Shown here piece by piece: positions 30,951-64,000 of a stretch of DNA of 64,000 bases. The DNA is from Gemmatimonadaceae bacterium. Lineage in GTDB: Bacteria > Gemmatimonadota > Gemmatimonadetes > Gemmatimonadales > Gemmatimonadaceae. A program made the position numbers and the translations under genes. The notes under the pieces are model-generated. The model made no database searches. It was not told the DNA's origin and worked only from the letters and a program-made list of their open reading frames with translations. The stretch's first letter is position 1. Every line of letters starts with the position of its first letter. The DNA lies in the NCBI GenBank assembly GCA_011525845.1, contig WYBP01000023.1:62001-126000 (forward strand), in the 5' to 3' direction.

Positions 30951-31444
30951 TCCCCCCGCGGGTCGGCGGGATCCCAGAGCTCGCTCACGGGGTGCGTCTG
31001 CGCCGTGAGGCGCTCGAGGTCGTACACGAAGCGCTCACGGTTGAACTCCGCGTTCTCGTAGTGGCGCCCCATGTGGATCGCCTCCTCCGGGCAGACCTCC
31101 TGGCAGTAGCCGCAGAAGATGCAGCGGAACTCGTCGATCTCGAACACGAGCGGGTAGCGGTTCCCCGCCTCGTCCTCGCCGGGCACCAGCTTGATGCAGT
31201 TCGCCGGGCAGACGGTCGGGCAGAGGCCGCAGGCCACGCACTTCGCGGTGCCGTCCTCGGTGGTGAGCATCCGGTGCGTCCCCCGCCAGCGCGGCGAGAT
31301 GTCCCAGCGCTCCTCCGGGTACTGCACCGTGACCTTGTGGGGGTCGATCATGTGCTTGAACGTGAGCGCGAGCCCCTTGAGCGTGGCGCGCACGTAGCTG
31401 ACCTCGCCCACCGGCCGCTCCATCACCTTCACGGTGATCGCCAT
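30947..31444 (-). CDS. nuoI: NADH-quinone oxidoreductase subunit I
   Basis: A 165-residue 8Fe ferredoxin-like subunit that carries electrons through clusters N6a and N6b toward the quinone site. Both cluster motifs are complete: CVACGLCPTVCPANC and CIFCGYCQEVCPEEA. ATG 31444 shares a base with the nuoH stop. A longer reading frame upstream runs through nuoH and is not coding. Confidence 0.97.
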   Translation of the reverse strand: MAITVKVMERPVGEVSYVRATLKGLALTFKHMIDPHKVTVQYPEERWDISPRWRGTHRMLTTEDGTAKCVACGLCPTVCPANCIKLVPGEDEAGNRYPLVFEIDEFRCIFCGYCQEVCPEEAIHMGRHYENAEFNRERFVYDLERLTAQTHPVSELWDPADPRGE

Positions 31445-55658: not shown

Positions 55659-56576
55659 CTAGGGAACGCGTGCCACTCCGCTCCGGGGATCGAACGTGGC
55701 CCCGGACGGCAGCACGTGCATGCTCACGCCCGTCGCGCCGAGGACCCCGGCGCCGGCGGGCGTGACCCCTGCGCGACGCGCGTCATAGACCACCACGACG
55801 CTCGCACCGCGCACCACCCAGGTCCCGTCGGGACGCACGACGAGGGCCGTCGACTCATCGATCCCGACGCCCAGGTGCGGCTCCCGCTCCAGCACGAGAC
55901 TGATGAGCCGATTGTGCCGCCGCCGGCGCAGGAAGTGCTGGTCGATGATCACATCGTCGATGAGCGCGAAGCCGTCCGCGGTCACGACGTTGTCCCGCGC
56001 GATGGTCCCCCAGGCGAGCGTCGAATCGGGACGCGTGCCCCCGGGGTGCCGTTCGTCCCCCGTGATCATCACCGCCGACATCACCGCGGCGCCGGCCGAG
56101 GTGCCGCCGATGACCGCGCCCGCCGCGTAACGCGCCTTGATCGCCCGCTCGGTGCGGGTCCCGCGCAGCACGCCCGCGAGCCGACCCTGGTCCCCTCCGC
56201 CGAACCAGACGCCCGTGGCATCGTCGAGCAGTCGCACGATCGAATCCGCGTCCGCCTGCTCCCGCGTGATCCAGACGTTCCGTGCGGTGGCGCCGAGCGC
56301 CCGCAGGTCGGCGGCCTTCTCCTCCCCGCTCGTGGCGCCGGAGGCGCTGGCCATGGCGAAGACGAGGATCCGCGCCTTCCCCTTCCCGCCCGCGAGATCG
56401 ACGAACTCCTGCACGAGCGCCGGTGGCTGCGGTCCGCCGCCGACGATGTAGAGCGTGCCGCGCGGCGTCGGCGCCTGCGCGCCGCCAACTCCCGCGAGCG
56501 CGACCGCCGTTGCGACCACCGTGAGGACGCAACAAGCCGCGCGCGTCAGGGAACTCCGGACGGATCGACGGGTCAT
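55659..56576 (-). CDS. Secreted cyanophycinase-like S51-family peptidase
   Basis: A 305-residue serine peptidase of the S51 (cyanophycinase / peptidase E) family. A signal peptide (residues 1-34, core VLTVVATAVALAGVGGAQA) implies export. The nucleophile is Ser160 in GGTSAGAAVMS; GTLYIVGGG and WFGGGDQGRLAG are also typical, as is the downstream DEST segment GVGIDESTALVV. True cyanophycinases cleave the storage polymer cyanophycin to beta-Asp-Arg. No cyanophycin synthetase or isoaspartyl dipeptidase is in the window, so the substrate is open. It diverges from the flavo-ferredoxin gene. Confidence 0.87.
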   Translation of the reverse strand: MTRRSVRSSLTRAACCVLTVVATAVALAGVGGAQAPTPRGTLYIVGGGPQPPALVQEFVDLAGGKGKARILVFAMASASGATSGEEKAADLRALGATARNVWITREQADADSIVRLLDDATGVWFGGGDQGRLAGVLRGTRTERAIKARYAAGAVIGGTSAGAAVMSAVMITGDERHPGGTRPDSTLAWGTIARDNVVTADGFALIDDVIIDQHFLRRRRHNRLISLVLEREPHLGVGIDESTALVVRPDGTWVVRGASVVVVYDARRAGVTPAGAGVLGATGVSMHVLPSGATFDPRSGVARVP

Positions 56577-56685: not shown

Positions 56686-58470
56686 ATGGGCGCCACGGAC
56701 GTCAACGATCCGCGGTACTACCACAAGGTGGTGGACTGTCAGTGGGCCTGTCCGGCACACACCAACGTCCCCGGCTACCTGCGGCTGATCGCGCAGGGGC
56801 GGTACGACGACTCGTACATGCTGAACCGCGAGTCGAACGTCTTCCCCGGGATCCTCGGGCGCACCTGTGACCGCCCCTGCGAGCCCGCCTGCCGCCGCGT
56901 GCGCGTGGAGGAGAAGCCGGTCGCGATCTGCCGCCTCAAGCGCGTGGCGGCCGACCTGCGCGGCGACATCACGGCGCGACTCCCCAAGGCACCGAAGCAG
57001 AAGAACGGGAAGCGGATCGCCTGCGTCGGCGCCGGTCCGGCCTCGCTCACCGTCGCGAACGACCTCCTCCCGCTGGGCTACGACGTCACGATCTTCGAGC
57101 AGAACGCCAAGCCGGGCGGCCTGATGCGCGTGAACATCCCGGCATTCCGGCTCCCGGCGAGCGTGCTCGACGAGGAGTGCGGTTACATCATCGACATGGG
57201 CGCGACGATGAAGTACGGCACGCCCATCGACTCGATGAAGGCGCTGCTCGCGAAGGGGTACGACGCCGTCTTCGTCGGCAGCGGCGCGCCCAAGGGGAAG
57301 GAACTGGACCTCCCGGGCCGCCACGACGACCCGGGCAAGATCCACATCGGCATCGAGTGGCTCGCCAACGTCCACTTCGGCCACGTGGAGCGGATCGAGC
57401 CGCGCGTGCTGATCATCGGCGTCGGCAACACGGCGATGGACTGCTGCCGCACCGCCAAGCGCGTGGGCGCCACCGACGTGACCGTCATCGCGCGCCGTGG
57501 GCGCAAGCACTTCAAGGCCTCCCCCTGGGAGCTCGAGGACGCCGAGGAGGAGCTGGTCGAGATCGTCGAGAACCACTCCCCGAAGCGCTTCGTGGTCGAG
57601 AACGGCACGCTGGTGGGGATGGAGTTCGAGGTCCTCGAGTGGACCGAGGACGCCTCCGGACGGCAGAAGAGCACCGTCAAGGAGACCCGCATCCTCCCCT
57701 GCGACGCGGTGATCCTCGCGATCGGGCAGGACAACGCCTTCCCCTGGATCGAGCGGGACGTGGGGATCGAGTTCGACCCCAAGTGGGACATGCCGGTCGT
57801 GGACAAGACGACCTTCCAGAGCACGCGGGAGGGTGTCTTCTTCGGCGGCGACGCGGCGTGGGGACCCGAGAACATCATCTGGGCGGTCGCGCACGGGCAC
57901 CAGGCGGCGATCTCGATCCACCAGCACTGCCAGGGGAAGCCCGTCACGGAGCGCCCGCCCCAGGGGATGACGCTGGTGAGCGCCAAGATGGGGATGCACA
58001 GCTGGGCCTACAGCAACGATTACGAACCGGCGAAGCGCGCGAAGATGCAGCACGAGGACCTCACCAAGCGCTTCGCGGACATCACCGTCGAGGTGGAGCT
58101 CGGCTTCACGCCCGAGCAGGCCGCACGCGAGGTGCAGCGCTGCCTCAACTGCGACATCCAGACCCACTTCACGACCTCGCTCTGCATCGAGTGCGACGCC
58201 TGCGTGGACGTCTGCCCCACGCGCTGCCTCACCATCACCACCAACGGCACCAGCGAGGCGGACCTGCGCACGCGGCTCTCGGCGCCCGCCGAGAACCTGG
58301 ACCAGGCGGTGTACGTGTCGGACGCGCTGCCGCAGACCAAGCGCGTGATGGTGAAGGACGAGGACGTCTGCCTGCACTGCGGCCTCTGCGCCGAACGCTG
58401 CCCCACCGCGGCCTGGGACATGCGCACCTTCGACCTCAAGCTGCCCTACGCGGGGATGATGCAGCCATGA
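56686..58470 (+). CDS. FAD/NAD(P)-dependent oxidoreductase fused to ferredoxin domains
   Basis: A 594-residue electron-transfer protein. The N-terminal part matches the Fe-S domain of GltD/NfnB-type enzymes (Cys18, 22, 61, 65, 69). A FAD-binding GAGPAS (115-120) and an NAD(P)-binding GVGNTA (245-250) follow. The C-terminus adds a ferredoxin region with cysteines 500, 503, 506 and 510, and a second motif CLHCGLCAERCPTAAW (562-572). The C-terminal 4Fe-4S pair could take electrons from the adjoining 2-oxoacid:ferredoxin oxidoreductase and pass them through FAD to NAD(P)+. The alpha subunit start overlaps its stop (ATGA). The direction of electron flow and the cofactor choice are inference. ATG 56686 follows AGGGGG by ten bases. 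Confidence 0.88.
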   Translation: MGATDVNDPRYYHKVVDCQWACPAHTNVPGYLRLIAQGRYDDSYMLNRESNVFPGILGRTCDRPCEPACRRVRVEEKPVAICRLKRVAADLRGDITARLPKAPKQKNGKRIACVGAGPASLTVANDLLPLGYDVTIFEQNAKPGGLMRVNIPAFRLPASVLDEECGYIIDMGATMKYGTPIDSMKALLAKGYDAVFVGSGAPKGKELDLPGRHDDPGKIHIGIEWLANVHFGHVERIEPRVLIIGVGNTAMDCCRTAKRVGATDVTVIARRGRKHFKASPWELEDAEEELVEIVENHSPKRFVVENGTLVGMEFEVLEWTEDASGRQKSTVKETRILPCDAVILAIGQDNAFPWIERDVGIEFDPKWDMPVVDKTTFQSTREGVFFGGDAAWGPENIIWAVAHGHQAAISIHQHCQGKPVTERPPQGMTLVSAKMGMHSWAYSNDYEPAKRAKMQHEDLTKRFADITVEVELGFTPEQAAREVQRCLNCDIQTHFTTSLCIECDACVDVCPTRCLTITTNGTSEADLRTRLSAPAENLDQAVYVSDALPQTKRVMVKDEDVCLHCGLCAERCPTAAWDMRTFDLKLPYAGMMQP

Positions 58471-60266
58471 GCGGGATCAACGACTTCGCGTTCAAGATGG
58501 GCACCGTCAACGGCACCGGGTCGGCCAGTGCGAACGGCCTCCTCATGCAGGCGATCTTCCGGATGGGGATCCCGGTCACGGGGAAGAACATCTTCCCGTC
58601 GAACATCCAGGGGCTCCCCACCTGGTACGAGATCCGGGTGAGCAAGGACGGCTACACGGCGCGCCCCTCCGAGGTGGACCTGGTGGTCGCGCTGAACCCC
58701 GCGACCTACGCCAAGGACGTGGCGACCGTCCGCCCGGGCGGCTACCTGCTCTACGACTCCTCGTGGCCGCTCGACCCGACCCTCGTGCGCGAAGGGATCA
58801 CGATCCTCGGCGTGCCCTTCGGGCGGATGTGCGTCGAGGCGTTCACCAAGGACCGCGAGCGCACGCTGCTCCGAAACATCGCCTACGCGGGCGCCCTCGC
58901 CGCCCTCCTCGAGATCGACATGCAGGTGATCGAGGGGATGCTGAACGAGAAGTTCGGGAAGAAGAAGTCGCTCCTCGACGCGAACCACACCGCGATCCGG
59001 CTCGGCTACGACTACGCCAAGGCCAACTTCACCTGCCCGCTCCCCTTCCACCTCGCGCCGATGGACGCCACCGGCGGCTCCATCCTGATGGACGGGAACA
59101 CGGCGTGCGCGCTCGGTGCGGTGTATGCCGGCGCCACGGTGGGCGCCTGGTATCCGATCACGCCCGCCACGGCGATGATGGAGGCGTTCAAGGCGTTCTG
59201 CGAGAAGTACCGTGTGGACAAGGCGACGGGGAAGAACAACTACATCATCCTTCAGGCCGAGGACGAGCTGGCCGCCGCGGGGATCGTGATCGGGGCGGCC
59301 TGGGCCGGGGCCCGGGCGTTCACCAACACTTCGGGGCCCGGGATCTCGCTCATGCAGGAGTTCATCGGCCTCGCGTACTACACCGACATCCCGGCCGTCT
59401 TCTACGACATCCAGCGCTGCGGCCCCTCCACGGGGATGCCGACCCGCACGCAGCAGGCGGACCTCCTCTCGCTCGCCTACGCCTCCCACGGCGACACGAA
59501 GCACCTGGTGCTCTTCCCCGCGGACCCGCACGAGTGCTTCTCGATGTCCGTCGAGGCGTTCGACCTCGCCGAGCGCTTCCAGACGCCGGTCTTCGTCGCG
59601 TCGGACCTCGACATCGGGATGAACGACTGGATGATCCCGCGCCTCGAGTGGGACGACGCGTATCGGCCCGACCGGGGCAAGGTGCTCGACGCGGCCGCGC
59701 TCGAGAAGCTGCCGCGCTTCTCGCGCTTCCTCGACGTGGATGGCGACGGCGTGGCCGCACGGACCCTCCCCGGCGTCGGGGGCAAGGGGGCGTACTTCGT
59801 CCGTGGCTCCGGACATGACAAGCATGCGGCGTACACGGAGGACTCGGACGCCTATCAGGAGGTCGTGGACCGGCTCAAGCGGAAGTTCGAGCACGCCGCG
59901 GCGGCGATGCCGAAGCCGGCGATCCTCCGCCGCAAGGGCGCCGAGGTCGGACTGGTGACCCTCGGCGGCTGCGACGCCGCCGTCCGCGAGGCAGCGGACC
60001 GGCTGCAGGAGGCCGGGATCGCCGCGGACGTGATGCGCATCCGGGGCTTCCCGTTCGGCGCCGAGGTCGCGGAGTTCCTCGGTGAGCATGAGCACACCTT
60101 CGTGATCGAGCAGAACCGGGACGCACAGTTGCGCTCCCTGCTGATGATCGAGCTCGGCGTGCCGCGCGACGAGCTCATCCCCGTCCTGGACTACGGCGGC
60201 ATGCCCCTCACCGCGAAGGTGGTGGTCGACGCCGTGAGCGCCCGCGTCGCGGGGGTGCCGGCATGA
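58467..60266 (+). CDS. 2-oxoacid:ferredoxin oxidoreductase, fused gamma-alpha subunit
   Basis: A 599-residue subunit with the gamma domain first (about 10-185) and the alpha domain second (from about 205). The gamma part has GTGSASANGLLMQAIFRMG and NIFPSNIQGLPTWYEIRVS. The alpha part opens with ACALGAVYAGATVGAWYPITP, the substrate-loop signature, and later ISLMQEFIGLAYYTDIPAVFYDIQRCGPSTGMPTRTQQADL. This fusion is typical of 2-oxoglutarate:ferredoxin oxidoreductases (KorA), but pyruvate or branched 2-oxoacids are possible, so I give no symbol. It overlaps both neighbours by four bases, as in a tightly coupled complex. Adjacent succinate dehydrogenase genes favour 2-oxoglutarate. Confidence 0.93.
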   Translation: MSGINDFAFKMGTVNGTGSASANGLLMQAIFRMGIPVTGKNIFPSNIQGLPTWYEIRVSKDGYTARPSEVDLVVALNPATYAKDVATVRPGGYLLYDSSWPLDPTLVREGITILGVPFGRMCVEAFTKDRERTLLRNIAYAGALAALLEIDMQVIEGMLNEKFGKKKSLLDANHTAIRLGYDYAKANFTCPLPFHLAPMDATGGSILMDGNTACALGAVYAGATVGAWYPITPATAMMEAFKAFCEKYRVDKATGKNNYIILQAEDELAAAGIVIGAAWAGARAFTNTSGPGISLMQEFIGLAYYTDIPAVFYDIQRCGPSTGMPTRTQQADLLSLAYASHGDTKHLVLFPADPHECFSMSVEAFDLAERFQTPVFVASDLDIGMNDWMIPRLEWDDAYRPDRGKVLDAAALEKLPRFSRFLDVDGDGVAARTLPGVGGKGAYFVRGSGHDKHAAYTEDSDAYQEVVDRLKRKFEHAAAAMPKPAILRRKGAEVGLVTLGGCDAAVREAADRLQEAGIAADVMRIRGFPFGAEVAEFLGEHEHTFVIEQNRDAQLRSLLMIELGVPRDELIPVLDYGGMPLTAKVVVDAVSARVAGVPA

Positions 60267-61318
60267 CGTCGATCGCCAAGCCCCCGGTCAAGCACCCCAG
60301 CTCGCGCCAGAACGGGATCGGGCTCACGCTGCGCGACTACGAGGGCGTGATGTCCACGCTCTGCGCCGGCTGCGGCCACGACTCCATCACCGCCAGCATC
60401 GTCCAGGCCGCGTGGGAGATGGAGCTCGAGCCGCACCGCGTCGGCAAGATGAGCGGGATCGGGTGTTCGTCGAAGACCACCGCGTACTTCATGAAGCAAT
60501 CGCACGGCTTCAACTCCGTGCACGGCCGGATGCCATCGGTCACCTCCGGGGCGGCCGCCGCCAACGGCGGACTCACCTACATCGGCGTCTCCGGGGATGG
60601 CGACTCGCTCTCGATCGGCGTCGGGCAGCTCTGCCACGCCATCCGGCGCAACGTGAACATGCTCTACATGCTGGAGAACAACGGCGTGTACGGGCTGACC
60701 AAGGGCCAGTTCTCCGCCTCGGCGGACATCGGCTCCACGTCCAAGAAGGGTGAGGCGAACGAGCAGGCGCCGATCGACCCGATCCTCCTCGCGCTCTCCC
60801 TCGGCGCCACCTACGTCGCCCGCTCCTTCTCGGGCGACAAGCGGCAGCTCGTCCCGATCATCAAGGCGGGGATCGCGCACAAGGGGTTCGCGCTCGTGGA
60901 CGTCATCTCCCCCTGCGTGACCTTCAACGACCACGAGGGATCGACCAAGAGCTACGCCTACACGCGCCAGCACGAGGTGGAGGCGGTCGAGGCGGACTAT
61001 GTGCCGCTGCGGCGCGAGATCACGATGCCCGAGACCAAGGGTGCCGTGACGGTGGTGCAGATGCACGACGGGTCCTCGGTGCGCCTCCGCCCCACGGCAC
61101 CCGACTACGATCCCACCGACCGCGAGAGTGCGTACGCACATGTCCGCGCCTGCCAGGCGCGGGGCGAGATCGCGACAGGGCTGCTCTTCGTGAGCGAGGG
61201 CGCGCGGGACATGCACGAGCTGGCCCGCACGGTGCCCACGCCGCTCGTGGACGTGCCCTTCGAGGCGCTCTGCCCCGGCCAGGCGGCGCTCGACAAGCTG
61301 ATGGCGCGGTATCGCTGA
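60263..61318 (+). CDS. 2-oxoacid:ferredoxin oxidoreductase, beta (TPP-binding) subunit
   Basis: A 351-residue subunit that binds thiamine diphosphate and one [4Fe-4S] cluster. Cluster ligands fit LCAGCGHD, GIGCSSK and VISPCVTFNDH. The TPP motif is GVSGDGDSLSIGVGQLCHAIRRNVNM followed by LENNGVYGLTKGQ. With the gamma-alpha subunit it would oxidatively decarboxylate a 2-oxoacid to an acyl-CoA and reduce ferredoxin. It starts at ATG 60263 (ATGA overlap). Its stop lies three bases from the stop of the convergent small gene. The C-terminal 80 residues extend beyond the shortest family members. Confidence 0.93.
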   Translation: MTSIAKPPVKHPSSRQNGIGLTLRDYEGVMSTLCAGCGHDSITASIVQAAWEMELEPHRVGKMSGIGCSSKTTAYFMKQSHGFNSVHGRMPSVTSGAAAANGGLTYIGVSGDGDSLSIGVGQLCHAIRRNVNMLYMLENNGVYGLTKGQFSASADIGSTSKKGEANEQAPIDPILLALSLGATYVARSFSGDKRQLVPIIKAGIAHKGFALVDVISPCVTFNDHEGSTKSYAYTRQHEVEAVEADYVPLRREITMPETKGAVTVVQMHDGSSVRLRPTAPDYDPTDRESAYAHVRACQARGEIATGLLFVSEGARDMHELARTVPTPLVDVPFEALCPGQAALDKLMARYR

Positions 61319-61321
61319 GCG

Positions 61322-61729
61322 TCAGCCCAGGTCGGGCCCCACCCACCCCCGTCGCGCCTCGACCGAGAAGAGCCGCTCGCGGCTGTAGGACCTGAGCGGC
61401 CACTCCCGTTCAGCCATCGGGGACGCGAGGAGGGCGTCGATGAGCGCCTCGAAGGGCACACCCTCGCGCGCCCGCACGAACGCCTCGATCCCGAGCAGGT
61501 AGAGCCGCGTGATCGTCTCGTGGTACCCCTCGGTGTCGCTATTCGGGGTCCCCACGGCATCGTTGTGCTCGCGGATCCGCCGGCGCACGATCGCCAGCGC
61601 CTCGTCGTGCGGGTGCCGCGAGAGGTACCAGAGACCCACCAGGAGGTGCGCCTGGTGCGTCCACTCCGCCTTCGCCACCTGTCGCGCCTCGAACCGGGCG
61701 ACGAACGCCGCGAGTTCCCGTTCCGTCAC
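61322..61729 (-). CDS. Small conserved-looking protein of unknown function, downstream of sdhB
   Basis: I do not recognise this 135-residue soluble protein. It is helical and histidine-rich, with KAEWTHQAHLLVGLWYL (His25, His28), REHNDAVGTPNSDTEGYHETIT (His55, His70, Glu71) and a C-terminal LRSYSRERLFSVEARRGWVGPDLG. The spaced His and Glu residues might bind a metal ion. GTG 61729 lies 13 bases after the sdhB stop, so it is probably the last gene of the sdh operon. It ends three bases from the korB-like stop on the other strand. It has no signal peptide or membrane segment. Confidence 0.7.
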   Translation of the reverse strand: MTERELAAFVARFEARQVAKAEWTHQAHLLVGLWYLSRHPHDEALAIVRRRIREHNDAVGTPNSDTEGYHETITRLYLLGIEAFVRAREGVPFEALIDALLASPMAEREWPLRSYSRERLFSVEARRGWVGPDLG

Positions 61730-61742
61730 TTCCCGGGGACCG

Positions 61743-62539
61743 TCAGGCGGAGTCCGCGTGCACCTTCTCCTCGACCGCGGTCGCACTCGCGAGCACATAA
61801 TCGCGATTCATCTGCATGATCGCGTCGAGCGAGATCCCCTTCGGGCAGGCCTCCTGGCACTCGCCGAAGAGCGTGCAGCCGCCGAACCCCTCGAGGTCCA
61901 TCCGTTCCACCATCGCCTTGGCCCGCCGCTTCCGTTCCGGCTGCCCCTGCGGCAGCGCACCCAGGTGCGAGATCTTGGCGGCGGTGAAGAGCGACGCCGA
62001 GGCGTTCGGGCAGGCGGCCACGCAGGCCCCGCACCCGATGCAGGCGGCGTTGTCCATCGCGAGGTCCGCGTCCGCCTTCGCGATCGGGAGCCCGTTGGCG
62101 TCCTGCGGCGTGCCGGTCGGCGCGGAGATGAACCCACCCGCCTGGATGATCCGGTCGAACGCGCCACGATCGACCACGAGGTCCTTGATCACCGGGAACG
62201 CCTTCGCGCGCCAGGGCTCGATCCAGATGGAGTCCCCGTCCTTGAAGCTCCGCATGTGGAGCTGGCAGGCGGTGGTCAGCTTCATCGGCCCATGTGCCGA
62301 GCCGTTGATCATCAGGCCGCACGACCCGCAGATCCCCTCGCGGCAGTCGTGGTCGAACGCGATCGGCTCATCCCCGGACTCGACCAGCCGCTCGTTCACG
62401 GTGTCGAGCATCTCGAGGAAACTCATGTCGGGGCTGATGTCGCGCGCCGGGTACTGCACCATCCGGCCCGCATCCTTCGGCCCCTTCTGGCGCCACACGT
62501 GGAGCGTGAGGTGCATCGCCGCACCGGCCGTGGACGCGC

Positions 62540-62543
<4 letters not shown>
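61743..62543 (-). CDS. sdhB: Succinate dehydrogenase / fumarate reductase iron-sulfur subunit
   Basis: This subunit passes electrons from the flavin of SdhA to the quinone site. Three cluster motifs are complete: [2Fe-2S] in [15 protein letters not shown], [4Fe-4S] in [15 protein letters not shown], and the third cluster in [16 protein letters not shown] choose GTG 62543 (266 residues) because it overlaps the sdhA stop (GTGA) and has GGAG six bases upstream. ATG 62516 lies nine codons later without a ribosome-binding site. It is longer than proteobacterial SdhB, as in other non-proteobacterial quinone-linked types. Confidence 0.94.

Positions 62544-64000
<1,457 letters not shown>

Follow-up and report, generated by a model that had tools for sequence, protein, structure and literature searches.

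The 64,000-nucleotide window analysed here (positions 62,001 to 126,000 of contig WYBP01000023.1, from a Gemmatimonadaceae bacterium) contains three overlapping genes, korC, korA and korB, which probably encode a 2-oxoglutarate:NADP+ oxidoreductase, KorABC. Its electrons would pass through the flavoprotein KorC, and it would work beside a complete 2-oxoglutarate dehydrogenase of the same cell. In window coordinates the genes are:

56686-58470, + strand: korC, iron-sulfur subunit with flavin adenine dinucleotide (FAD) and NAD(P) sites, 594 aa, GltD/NfnB-like with a C-terminal 2[4Fe-4S] ferredoxin domain
58467-60266, + strand: korA, gamma-alpha subunit of a 2-oxoacid:acceptor oxidoreductase, 599 aa, over the TIGR03710 cut-off
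60263-61318, + strand: korB, beta subunit for thiamine pyrophosphate (TPP) and one [4Fe-4S] cluster (C34 C37 C68 C218), 351 aa, with a C-terminal extension

In the proposed mechanism KorAB would decarboxylate 2-oxoglutarate with the help of TPP to yield succinyl-CoA, and the two electrons would leave one by one through the [4Fe-4S] cluster of KorB to the ferredoxin-like domain of KorC. They would then cross the GltD-type clusters of KorC, pair on its FAD and reduce NADP+. The complex would plausibly supply NADPH at the same step of the tricarboxylic acid (TCA) cycle where the dehydrogenase gives NADH.

Gene arrangement and conservation of the operon

Both joints, korC/korA and korA/korB, are ATGA overlaps. 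A sequence-only reading of this DNA had described three genes overlapping in this way and had assigned them a GltD/NfnB-like protein with ferredoxin clusters, a gamma-alpha subunit and a TPP-dependent beta subunit; its coordinates and both overlaps are exact, and the Pfam domains agree with the assignments. The korC frame is open upstream as far as a GTG at 56455. The ATG at 56686 is nevertheless the likely start: 12 of 19 relatives also have ATG at this position, and in nine of these 12 no earlier ATG occurs in the open frame.

KorC was searched for in 150 genomes sampled from the same phylum, the own genome included (sampled genomes carry G numbers, individual loci L numbers). A match at E 1e-60 was found in 82 genomes. 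Five of these had weak hits and were dropped (G001, G007, G009, G038 and G149), leaving 77 with a close KorC (>400 bits). A close KorA (>600 bits) occurred in 76 genomes, all within these 77. In 73 of the 77 korC and korA lie at most 300 bp apart; in the remaining four the gap is 362 bp (G006), the contig is split (G053), the contig ends (G098), or KorC is in pieces on two contigs with its end 3.6 kb from KorA (G051). Of 20 fetched regions, 19 carried the complete trio in this order; the twentieth (L061) is a distant homologue. The linkage in 73 of 77 genomes and the 19 complete regions argue that the trio is not a chance arrangement. The single-contig genomes G075 and G125 have their close KorC match in two far-apart pieces, owing to rearrangement or misassembly. 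Several genomes of the phylum (e.g. G010, G065, G090), with or without KorABC, encode a second KorA-like protein of another type, 33-35% identical.

Contigs of other genomes contain at least 584 KorC-like stretches. The best 80 were checked for the operon; they were ranked by likeness to the Aromatoleum protein, and the list leans to Pseudomonadota. korA follows korC in 78 of these 80 loci and korB follows as well in 67 of the 78, each miss lying within 0-351 bases of a contig end (korA-korB gap: median 51, maximum 2461 bases). Bearers of the trio outside the phylum include Pseudomonadota such as Aromatoleum, and the spread takes in Bradyrhizobium, Phenylobacterium and Variovorax. KorC also matched 101 plasmid records at 1e-30. 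Among the 30 plasmid matches listed, four have 56-61% identity (three Variovorax and plasmid 2 of Aromatoleum aromaticum EbN1) and the rest 27-36%; all three that were fetched of those four plasmids carry korC-korA-korB. The EbN1 trio is 56, 52 and 57% identical to the window's genes, and alignments with the proteins of A. aromaticum EbN1 and of A. buckelii cover almost the whole length at 50-58%.

In a KorC tree of 105 rows made by a quick method, the 20 rows of the phylum fall on one side of a branch with support 94, and the 83 others do likewise with support 63. The two outgroup rows were too long for rooting, and no direction of transfer is claimed. Two rows stand out: the KorC of L132, from a record titled Frankia sp. 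RB7, sits inside Bradyrhizobium with an end branch of 0.019 and is probably mislabelled or contaminated, and L075, titled Bacillota, sits among Alphaproteobacteria and may be mislabelled or contaminated too. A 33% identical KorC-like protein of a Phenylobacterium zucineum plasmid (L065) is encoded immediately ahead of nifJ and a gene resembling dihydroorotate dehydrogenase; this may be a comparable pyruvate:ferredoxin system linked to NAD(P).

Domains, clusters and coenzyme loop of KorC

The closest solved structures of KorC are NfnA/NfnB-type proteins, GltD and dihydropyrimidine dehydrogenase (DPD). The following elements were located:

56734-56958, + strand: Fer4_20 region, aa 17-91, with C18, C22, C61, C65, C69 and the invariant C82 (Pfam match; alignment)
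57013-57897, + strand: FAD-/NAD(P)-binding domain Pyr_redox_2, aa 110-404 (Pfam match)
57493-57504, + strand: R270-R273 (R-R-G-R), predicted from alignment to contact the 2'-phosphate of NADP(H)
58141-58152, + strand: C486-L-N-C489, a CxxC after the flavin domain that is N-terminal in NfnB (weak alignment to 5jca_L and 4ylf_B)
58183-58413, + strand: 2[4Fe-4S] ferredoxin-like domain (Fer4_7 dicluster), aa 500-576, its eight ligand cysteines kept in 102 of 102 relatives

Residues 17-415 of KorC align with 51-470 of the NfnB chain 5jca_L. The segment 462-492, which holds C486 and C489, aligns weakly (7 bits) with the N-terminal residues 19-48 of the same chain, and 468-490 aligns weakly (9 bits) with 21-43 of 4ylf_B. 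The first CxxC of the NfnB type seems to have moved behind the flavin domain in KorC, as in the fused relatives 9n5u, 9bov and 8oh5. One GltD-type [4Fe-4S] cluster would then be held by C486, C489, C18 and C69, and the second by C22, C61, C65 and a fourth ligand.

In DPD and Nfn the fourth ligand of the corresponding cluster is Gln or Glu. The aligned residue of KorC is K85; it is also Lys in 9n5u, 9bov and 8oh5, and Glu in 5jca and 4ylf. C82, three residues ahead of K85, is Cys in 83 of 83 KorC relatives outside the phylum and in 19 of 19 inside (102 of 102; the distant homologues L061 and L065, at 33% identity, are omitted from all these counts). The five aligned solved relatives have Arg, Ala or Gly there. 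We infer that C82 may be a cluster ligand.

The second Rossmann fold has a loop of NADP(H) type. R270 is invariant in the 102 sequences. Positions 271 and 273 are Arg or Lys (R-R/K-x-R/K) in 19 of 19 sequences of the phylum, whereas all 83 sequences from outside have Ser and Phe or Tyr (R-S-x-F/Y). Because R270 and R271 match the R-R of all five NfnB-like solved relatives aligned and basic residues at 271 and 273 occur in the clade of the phylum only, the KorC of the window looks NADP-specific, and more canonically so than the clade with Aromatoleum.

Among the 25 best of 54 NCBIfam matches of KorC none passed its curated cut-off. It scores highest against an unnamed NAD(P)-binding subfamily (395 bits, cut-off 516; the Aromatoleum protein scores a similar 389). 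The curated models therefore give the subunit no name. GltD-type models are far from reached (e.g. 252.8 against 471.75), and the operon partners are korA and korB, not GltB. An AlphaFold model of KorC was poor in the Fe-S regions (mean predicted local distance difference test score, pLDDT, 57.9) and was not used.

The earlier statement that no free ferredoxin gene lies nearby holds for the [4Fe-4S] type, by a Fer4_7 search of the whole genome in which [2Fe-2S] ferredoxins were not searched. Of its 17 matches, the ones that fall within the window are KorC, an SdhB (61833-62042, - strand) and a protein that by eye is NuoI-like (31025-31243, - strand). Ten translated loci were viewed, and three of the 17 matches (on contigs C12, C13 and C9) lie in other frames outside these ten. 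A single stand-alone 4Fe-4S ferredoxin-like gene was seen among the ten, at 92197-92394 of contig C9 of the own genome.

Comparison with known systems

A 2-oxoglutarate:NADP+ oxidoreductase (KGOR) of Azoarcus/Aromatoleum evansii was reportedly described by Ebenau-Jehle, Boll and Fuchs in 2003 (J Bacteriol 185:6119). It is said to have three subunits with FAD: a GltD-like FAD subunit, a gamma-alpha and a beta subunit. The window's trio shares this make-up, NADP+ is part of the name of KGOR, and the congeners A. aromaticum EbN1 and A. buckelii carry the same trio in the same gene order. The window differs in that it comes from another phylum, that its host also has 2-oxoglutarate dehydrogenase, that its loop is R-R/K-x-R/K where the clade of EbN1 and A. 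buckelii has R-S-x-F/Y (residues of the clade, not A. evansii's own), and that the aromatic-degradation context of KGOR is not shown for the window operon. A passage in PMC10134865, with reference to the 2003 work, places KGOR-alpha, a 2-oxoglutarate:NADP+ oxidoreductase subunit, in the GltD/NfnB superfamily next to NsoC, and one in PMC8163825 cites the A. evansii KGOR work for ferredoxin regeneration.

KorC has the FAD domain, the NADP(H)-type loop and the GltD-type cysteines in common with the family of NfnB, GltD and the N-terminal domain of DPD (5jca_L, 2vdc_G, 1gt8_A; fused forms 9n5u, 9bov, 8oh5). The CxxC behind the flavin domain is a trait that it shares with the fused forms and not with NfnB. 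It further differs from the family in its C-terminal dicluster domain and its 2-oxoacid oxidoreductase partners, with no GltB or NfnA in the operon. The operon encodes no NfnA-type partner (FAD plus [2Fe-2S]), and the flanks of 19 loci, taken to 2-4 kb, hold no conserved neighbour; the search for NfnA did not extend to the remaining genome.

The phenylglyoxylate:NAD+ oxidoreductase PadEFGHI likewise combines a 2-oxoacid oxidoreductase with a dedicated flavoprotein subunit for NAD(P), but KorA and KorB score only 51.2 and 20.9 bits against the PadG and PadI cut-offs of 700. OorDABC of the Helicobacter/Campylobacter type (8ys5) has homologous alpha and beta subunits; it presumably differs from KorABC in its split subunits, its small ferredoxin-like subunit and the lack of a flavoprotein. 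KorA and KorB have their closest solved relative in 6n2n, which we take to be the Magnetococcus 2-oxoglutarate:ferredoxin oxidoreductase (OGOR), its chains being titled pyruvate ferredoxin/flavodoxin oxidoreductase. They resemble this enzyme and StOFOR1/2 of Sulfolobus tokodaii (5b46-5b48) in sequence, in the YPITP motif, in the catalytic Arg and in the one [4Fe-4S] cluster of KorB. The Magnetococcus enzyme presumably uses free ferredoxin and has no KorC, whereas the window has one. The same difference separates the window from StOFOR, according to passages of PMC5020499.

KorABC is thus of a kind already known, here found in a different phylum and with minor differences in sequence. A literature search on Gemmatimonas or Gemmatimonadota and 2-oxoglutarate listed no paper that, judged by its title, deals with this operon, a weak negative with subscription papers outside its scope.

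2-Oxoglutarate dehydrogenase and NADPH sources of the host

In the host genome (3.58 Mb, 99.8% complete) korA is the only POR_N gene. It had been suggested from the sequence that this genome might lack the E1 and E2 of 2-oxoglutarate dehydrogenase; both are present above curated cut-offs, SucA (924 aa) with 1032 bits against 770 for TIGR00239 and SucB with 482 against 379 for TIGR01347. Further E1/E2 candidates read, by eye, like pyruvate and branched-chain 2-oxoacid dehydrogenases.

Across the phylum SucA was found in 139 of 150 genomes (E 1e-100). Among the 11 SucA-negative genomes five are KorC-positive (G084, G096, G110, G122, G129); the other six (G001, G003, G005, G007, G009, G011) belong to one family and have only a distant KorA. 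All 11 have a KorA-like protein of some type. The chance of this is 0.029, a post hoc count that ignores kinship and carries little weight. G129 has an E2 that reads as SucB-like, and its gap may be the assembly's; in G110 and G122, of one genus, no SucA candidate at all was found. Citrate synthase was present in seven of seven genomes checked, namely the five KorC-positive ones without SucA and two SucA-bearing controls (G034, G103).

We considered KorABC as a replacement of SucA and rejected it, only five of the 77 KorC-positive genomes being without SucA. A missing SucB-type E2 was also dropped as support: G034 has SucA, yet only one E2, branched-chain-like by eye. Coexistence of KorABC and SucA is the rule and loss of SucA the exception, part of which may be assembly gaps.

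No other Fer4_20 protein was found in the host genome, and so no GltD by that model. A search for the C-domain of glucose-6-phosphate dehydrogenase gave no candidate there, with a model that was positive in nine of 14 control genomes. The membrane transhydrogenase subunit PntB is present, another possible NADPH source. Since neither glucose-6-phosphate dehydrogenase nor another GltD-type protein was found, an NADPH-forming KorABC may suit such a cell, beside the NADH-forming dehydrogenase.

KorA, KorB and the choice of 2-oxoacid

The catalytic subunits have three recognised domains:

58512-59012, + strand: KorA gamma domain (POR), aa 16-182 (Pfam match)
59115-59618, + strand: KorA alpha domain (POR_N), aa 217-384, with YPITP (229-233) and R317; T232 and R317 align with Thr256 and Arg344 of StOFOR1
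60455-60904, + strand: KorB TPP-binding domain (TPP_enzyme_C), aa 65-214; K71, L145 and K147 align with K49b and L123b (pocket) and K125b (CoA) of StOFOR1

KorA passes the cut-off of TIGR03710, the alpha subfamily of 2-oxoacid:acceptor oxidoreductases (549 against 483 bits), and KorB stays under that of its subfamily TIGR02177 (211 against 262). The cluster cysteines of KorB, C34, C37, C68 and C218, are kept wherever aligned, in 70, 70, 70 and 66 relatives outside the phylum and in 19 each inside.

Passages of PMC5020499 describe the pocket of StOFOR1, which accepts both pyruvate and 2-oxoglutarate. The carboxylate is bound by Thr256a and Arg344a; 2-oxoglutarate is no longer used by the variants K49bI and D468aA, pyruvate is preferred by K49bR, and L123bN favours 2-oxoglutarate. 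KorAB keeps the counterparts T232, R317, K71, L145 and the CoA-contacting K147. K71, the counterpart of K49b, is Lys in 70 of 70 relatives outside the phylum and in 19 of 19 inside.

Several observations weigh against 2-oxoglutarate as the substrate. The counterpart of D468 in KorA is S448, which is Ser in 19 of 19 sequences of the phylum and, outside it, Thr in 70 and Ser in four of 74; Hydrogenobacter KorAB, which is specific for 2-oxoglutarate, has Leu at this position. In the rest of the pocket, S45, T322 and L145 are those of the broad-specificity StOFOR1. The models for 2-oxoglutarate synthase are far from reached (KorA 175 against 579 for NF007206, KorB 112 against 364 for NF007207), and no curated model therefore names the substrate. 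The host has a complete 2-oxoglutarate dehydrogenase, the need for a second enzyme being unexplained, and SucA is present in 72 of the 77 KorC-positive genomes of the phylum. Finally, the link to the A. evansii enzyme is by architecture and two congeners, not by the A. evansii sequence.

Several of these points also feed the alternative that the complex acts with NADP+ mainly on a different 2-oxoacid (pyruvate, 2-oxobutyrate, a branched-chain or an aromatic one) and on 2-oxoglutarate in a minor way. StOFOR1 uses both substrates with nearly the same pocket residues (PMC5020499), and KorA has S448 in place of the aspartate that favours 2-oxoglutarate in that enzyme. L123b of StOFOR1, the counterpart of L145, goes with broad specificity and does not mark 2-oxoglutarate use, which shifts some weight from 2-oxoglutarate to pyruvate or another substrate. 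Several findings nevertheless make this alternative unlikely. K71, whose StOFOR1 counterpart is needed for 2-oxoglutarate, is invariant. The pyruvate and branched-chain dehydrogenase-like genes make redundancy argue equally against those substrates. KorA falls far short of the curated models for enzymes acting on pyruvate, ketoisovalerate, indolepyruvate and phenylglyoxylate; for pyruvate it scores 61 bits with the PorA equivalog (cut-off 550) and 29 bits with that of NifJ (cut-off 911). The KorA-like proteins of the 11 genomes without SucA, five of them of this type, point the same way, in a small and related sample.

The KorAB pocket appears to be of the broad-specificity type minus one aspartate. 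It would allow 2-oxoglutarate without proving a preference, K71 speaking for it and S448 against. The choice of 2-oxoglutarate leans mainly on kinship with the described enzyme type.

Direction and coupling of electron transfer

By the redox potentials of the couples, oxidation of 2-oxoglutarate with NADP+ yields roughly 23-38 kJ/mol. The sequence-only reading had proposed a direct hand-over of electrons to NAD(P)+, or reverse carboxylation with NAD(P)H. Homology supports the former, most likely to NADP+; the latter would be uphill by ~23-38 kJ/mol and so would need a coupling of which the sequence gives no sign.

The energy available could be taken to favour flavin bifurcation, in which the exergonic transfer to NADP+ would also serve a second, low-potential acceptor, or two donors together would drive the reaction backwards. 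KorC is homologous to NfnB, whose FAD bifurcates according to a review, and it has four predicted clusters and the invariant extra C82 near the presumed flavin-side cluster. We regard this as very improbable: the operon has no second flavoprotein or NfnA-type [2Fe-2S] partner, no piece of the 2-4 kb flanks of 19 loci recurs at more than one other locus, GltD has the same flavin and is not known to use an outside low-potential acceptor, and the simple route accounts for all parts.

A flow from NADPH to ferredoxin, feeding a reductase and primed by KorAB as proposed for aromatic ring reduction in anaerobes, could draw on the description of A. evansii KGOR as part of such electron transfer (by its title and a citing passage) and on the stand-alone ferredoxin elsewhere in the genome, but it is highly unlikely, being uphill in potential without coupling, with no 4Fe-4S ferredoxin gene adjoining the operon. 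Nor did a scan around two proteobacterial loci reveal genes of aromatic degradation, though the EbN1 trio follows two acyl-CoA dehydrogenase genes, and no search aimed at benzoyl-CoA reductase was made in the host genome.

Neighbouring genes

The operon is flanked by the following genes:

55659-56576, - strand: Peptidase_S51 gene (cyanophycinase-like by eye), just upstream of korC (Pfam match)
61322-61798, - strand: 158-aa open reading frame (ORF) overlapping the sdhB end, no Pfam match at 1e-5
61743-63910, - strand: sdhB- and sdhA-like genes (Fer2_3 and Fer4; Succ_DH_flav_C), converging on korB (Pfam matches)

A tie to the adjoining succinate dehydrogenase genes was rejected; sdhA, sdhB and two other neighbours match none of the 20 fetched regions (E 1e-10). 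The Peptidase_S51 gene is not kept beside kor in the relatives' fetched regions, and any piece of the flanks of 19 loci (2-4 kb each) has a match at one other locus at most (E 1e-10). The kor operon appears to be self-contained.

We likewise rejected a tie to aromatic degradation, no such gene being recognised in the flanks of L067 and L092 (10 and 9 ORFs; two of the 80 loci). Upstream of the EbN1 trio, next to the acyl-CoA dehydrogenase genes, CBS and FAD proteins are encoded; of the four upstream proteins one recurs beside kor, in one (L142) of the other 83 named or plasmid loci. L046 and L047 have further genes in common after korB, one of them NuoE-like by eye, perhaps an NAD-linked dehydrogenase cluster.

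Implications

The enzyme type is widespread, known but little studied, and not a new kind of system. In the annotated EbN1 record the three genes are labelled FAD-dependent oxidoreductase, 2-oxoacid:acceptor oxidoreductase subunit alpha and 2-oxoacid:ferredoxin oxidoreductase subunit beta, and passages from genome surveys count 2-oxoglutarate:ferredoxin oxidoreductase among the enzymes of the reverse TCA cycle. Should KorABC be linked to NADP+, many genomes, judging by the at least 584 KorC-like stretches, would carry an NADPH-forming step of the TCA cycle that is misread under such labels.

For the phylum we tentatively propose, as a possibility that stands somewhat short of even, a coenzyme switch at the 2-oxoglutarate node. 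In cells without the oxidative pentose phosphate pathway the dehydrogenase would yield NADH and KorABC would yield NADPH, and some relatives with small genomes may have lost the dehydrogenase, leaving KorABC alone to complete their TCA cycle. If this is true, the basic NADP loop specific to the phylum would be the mark of the NADPH role.

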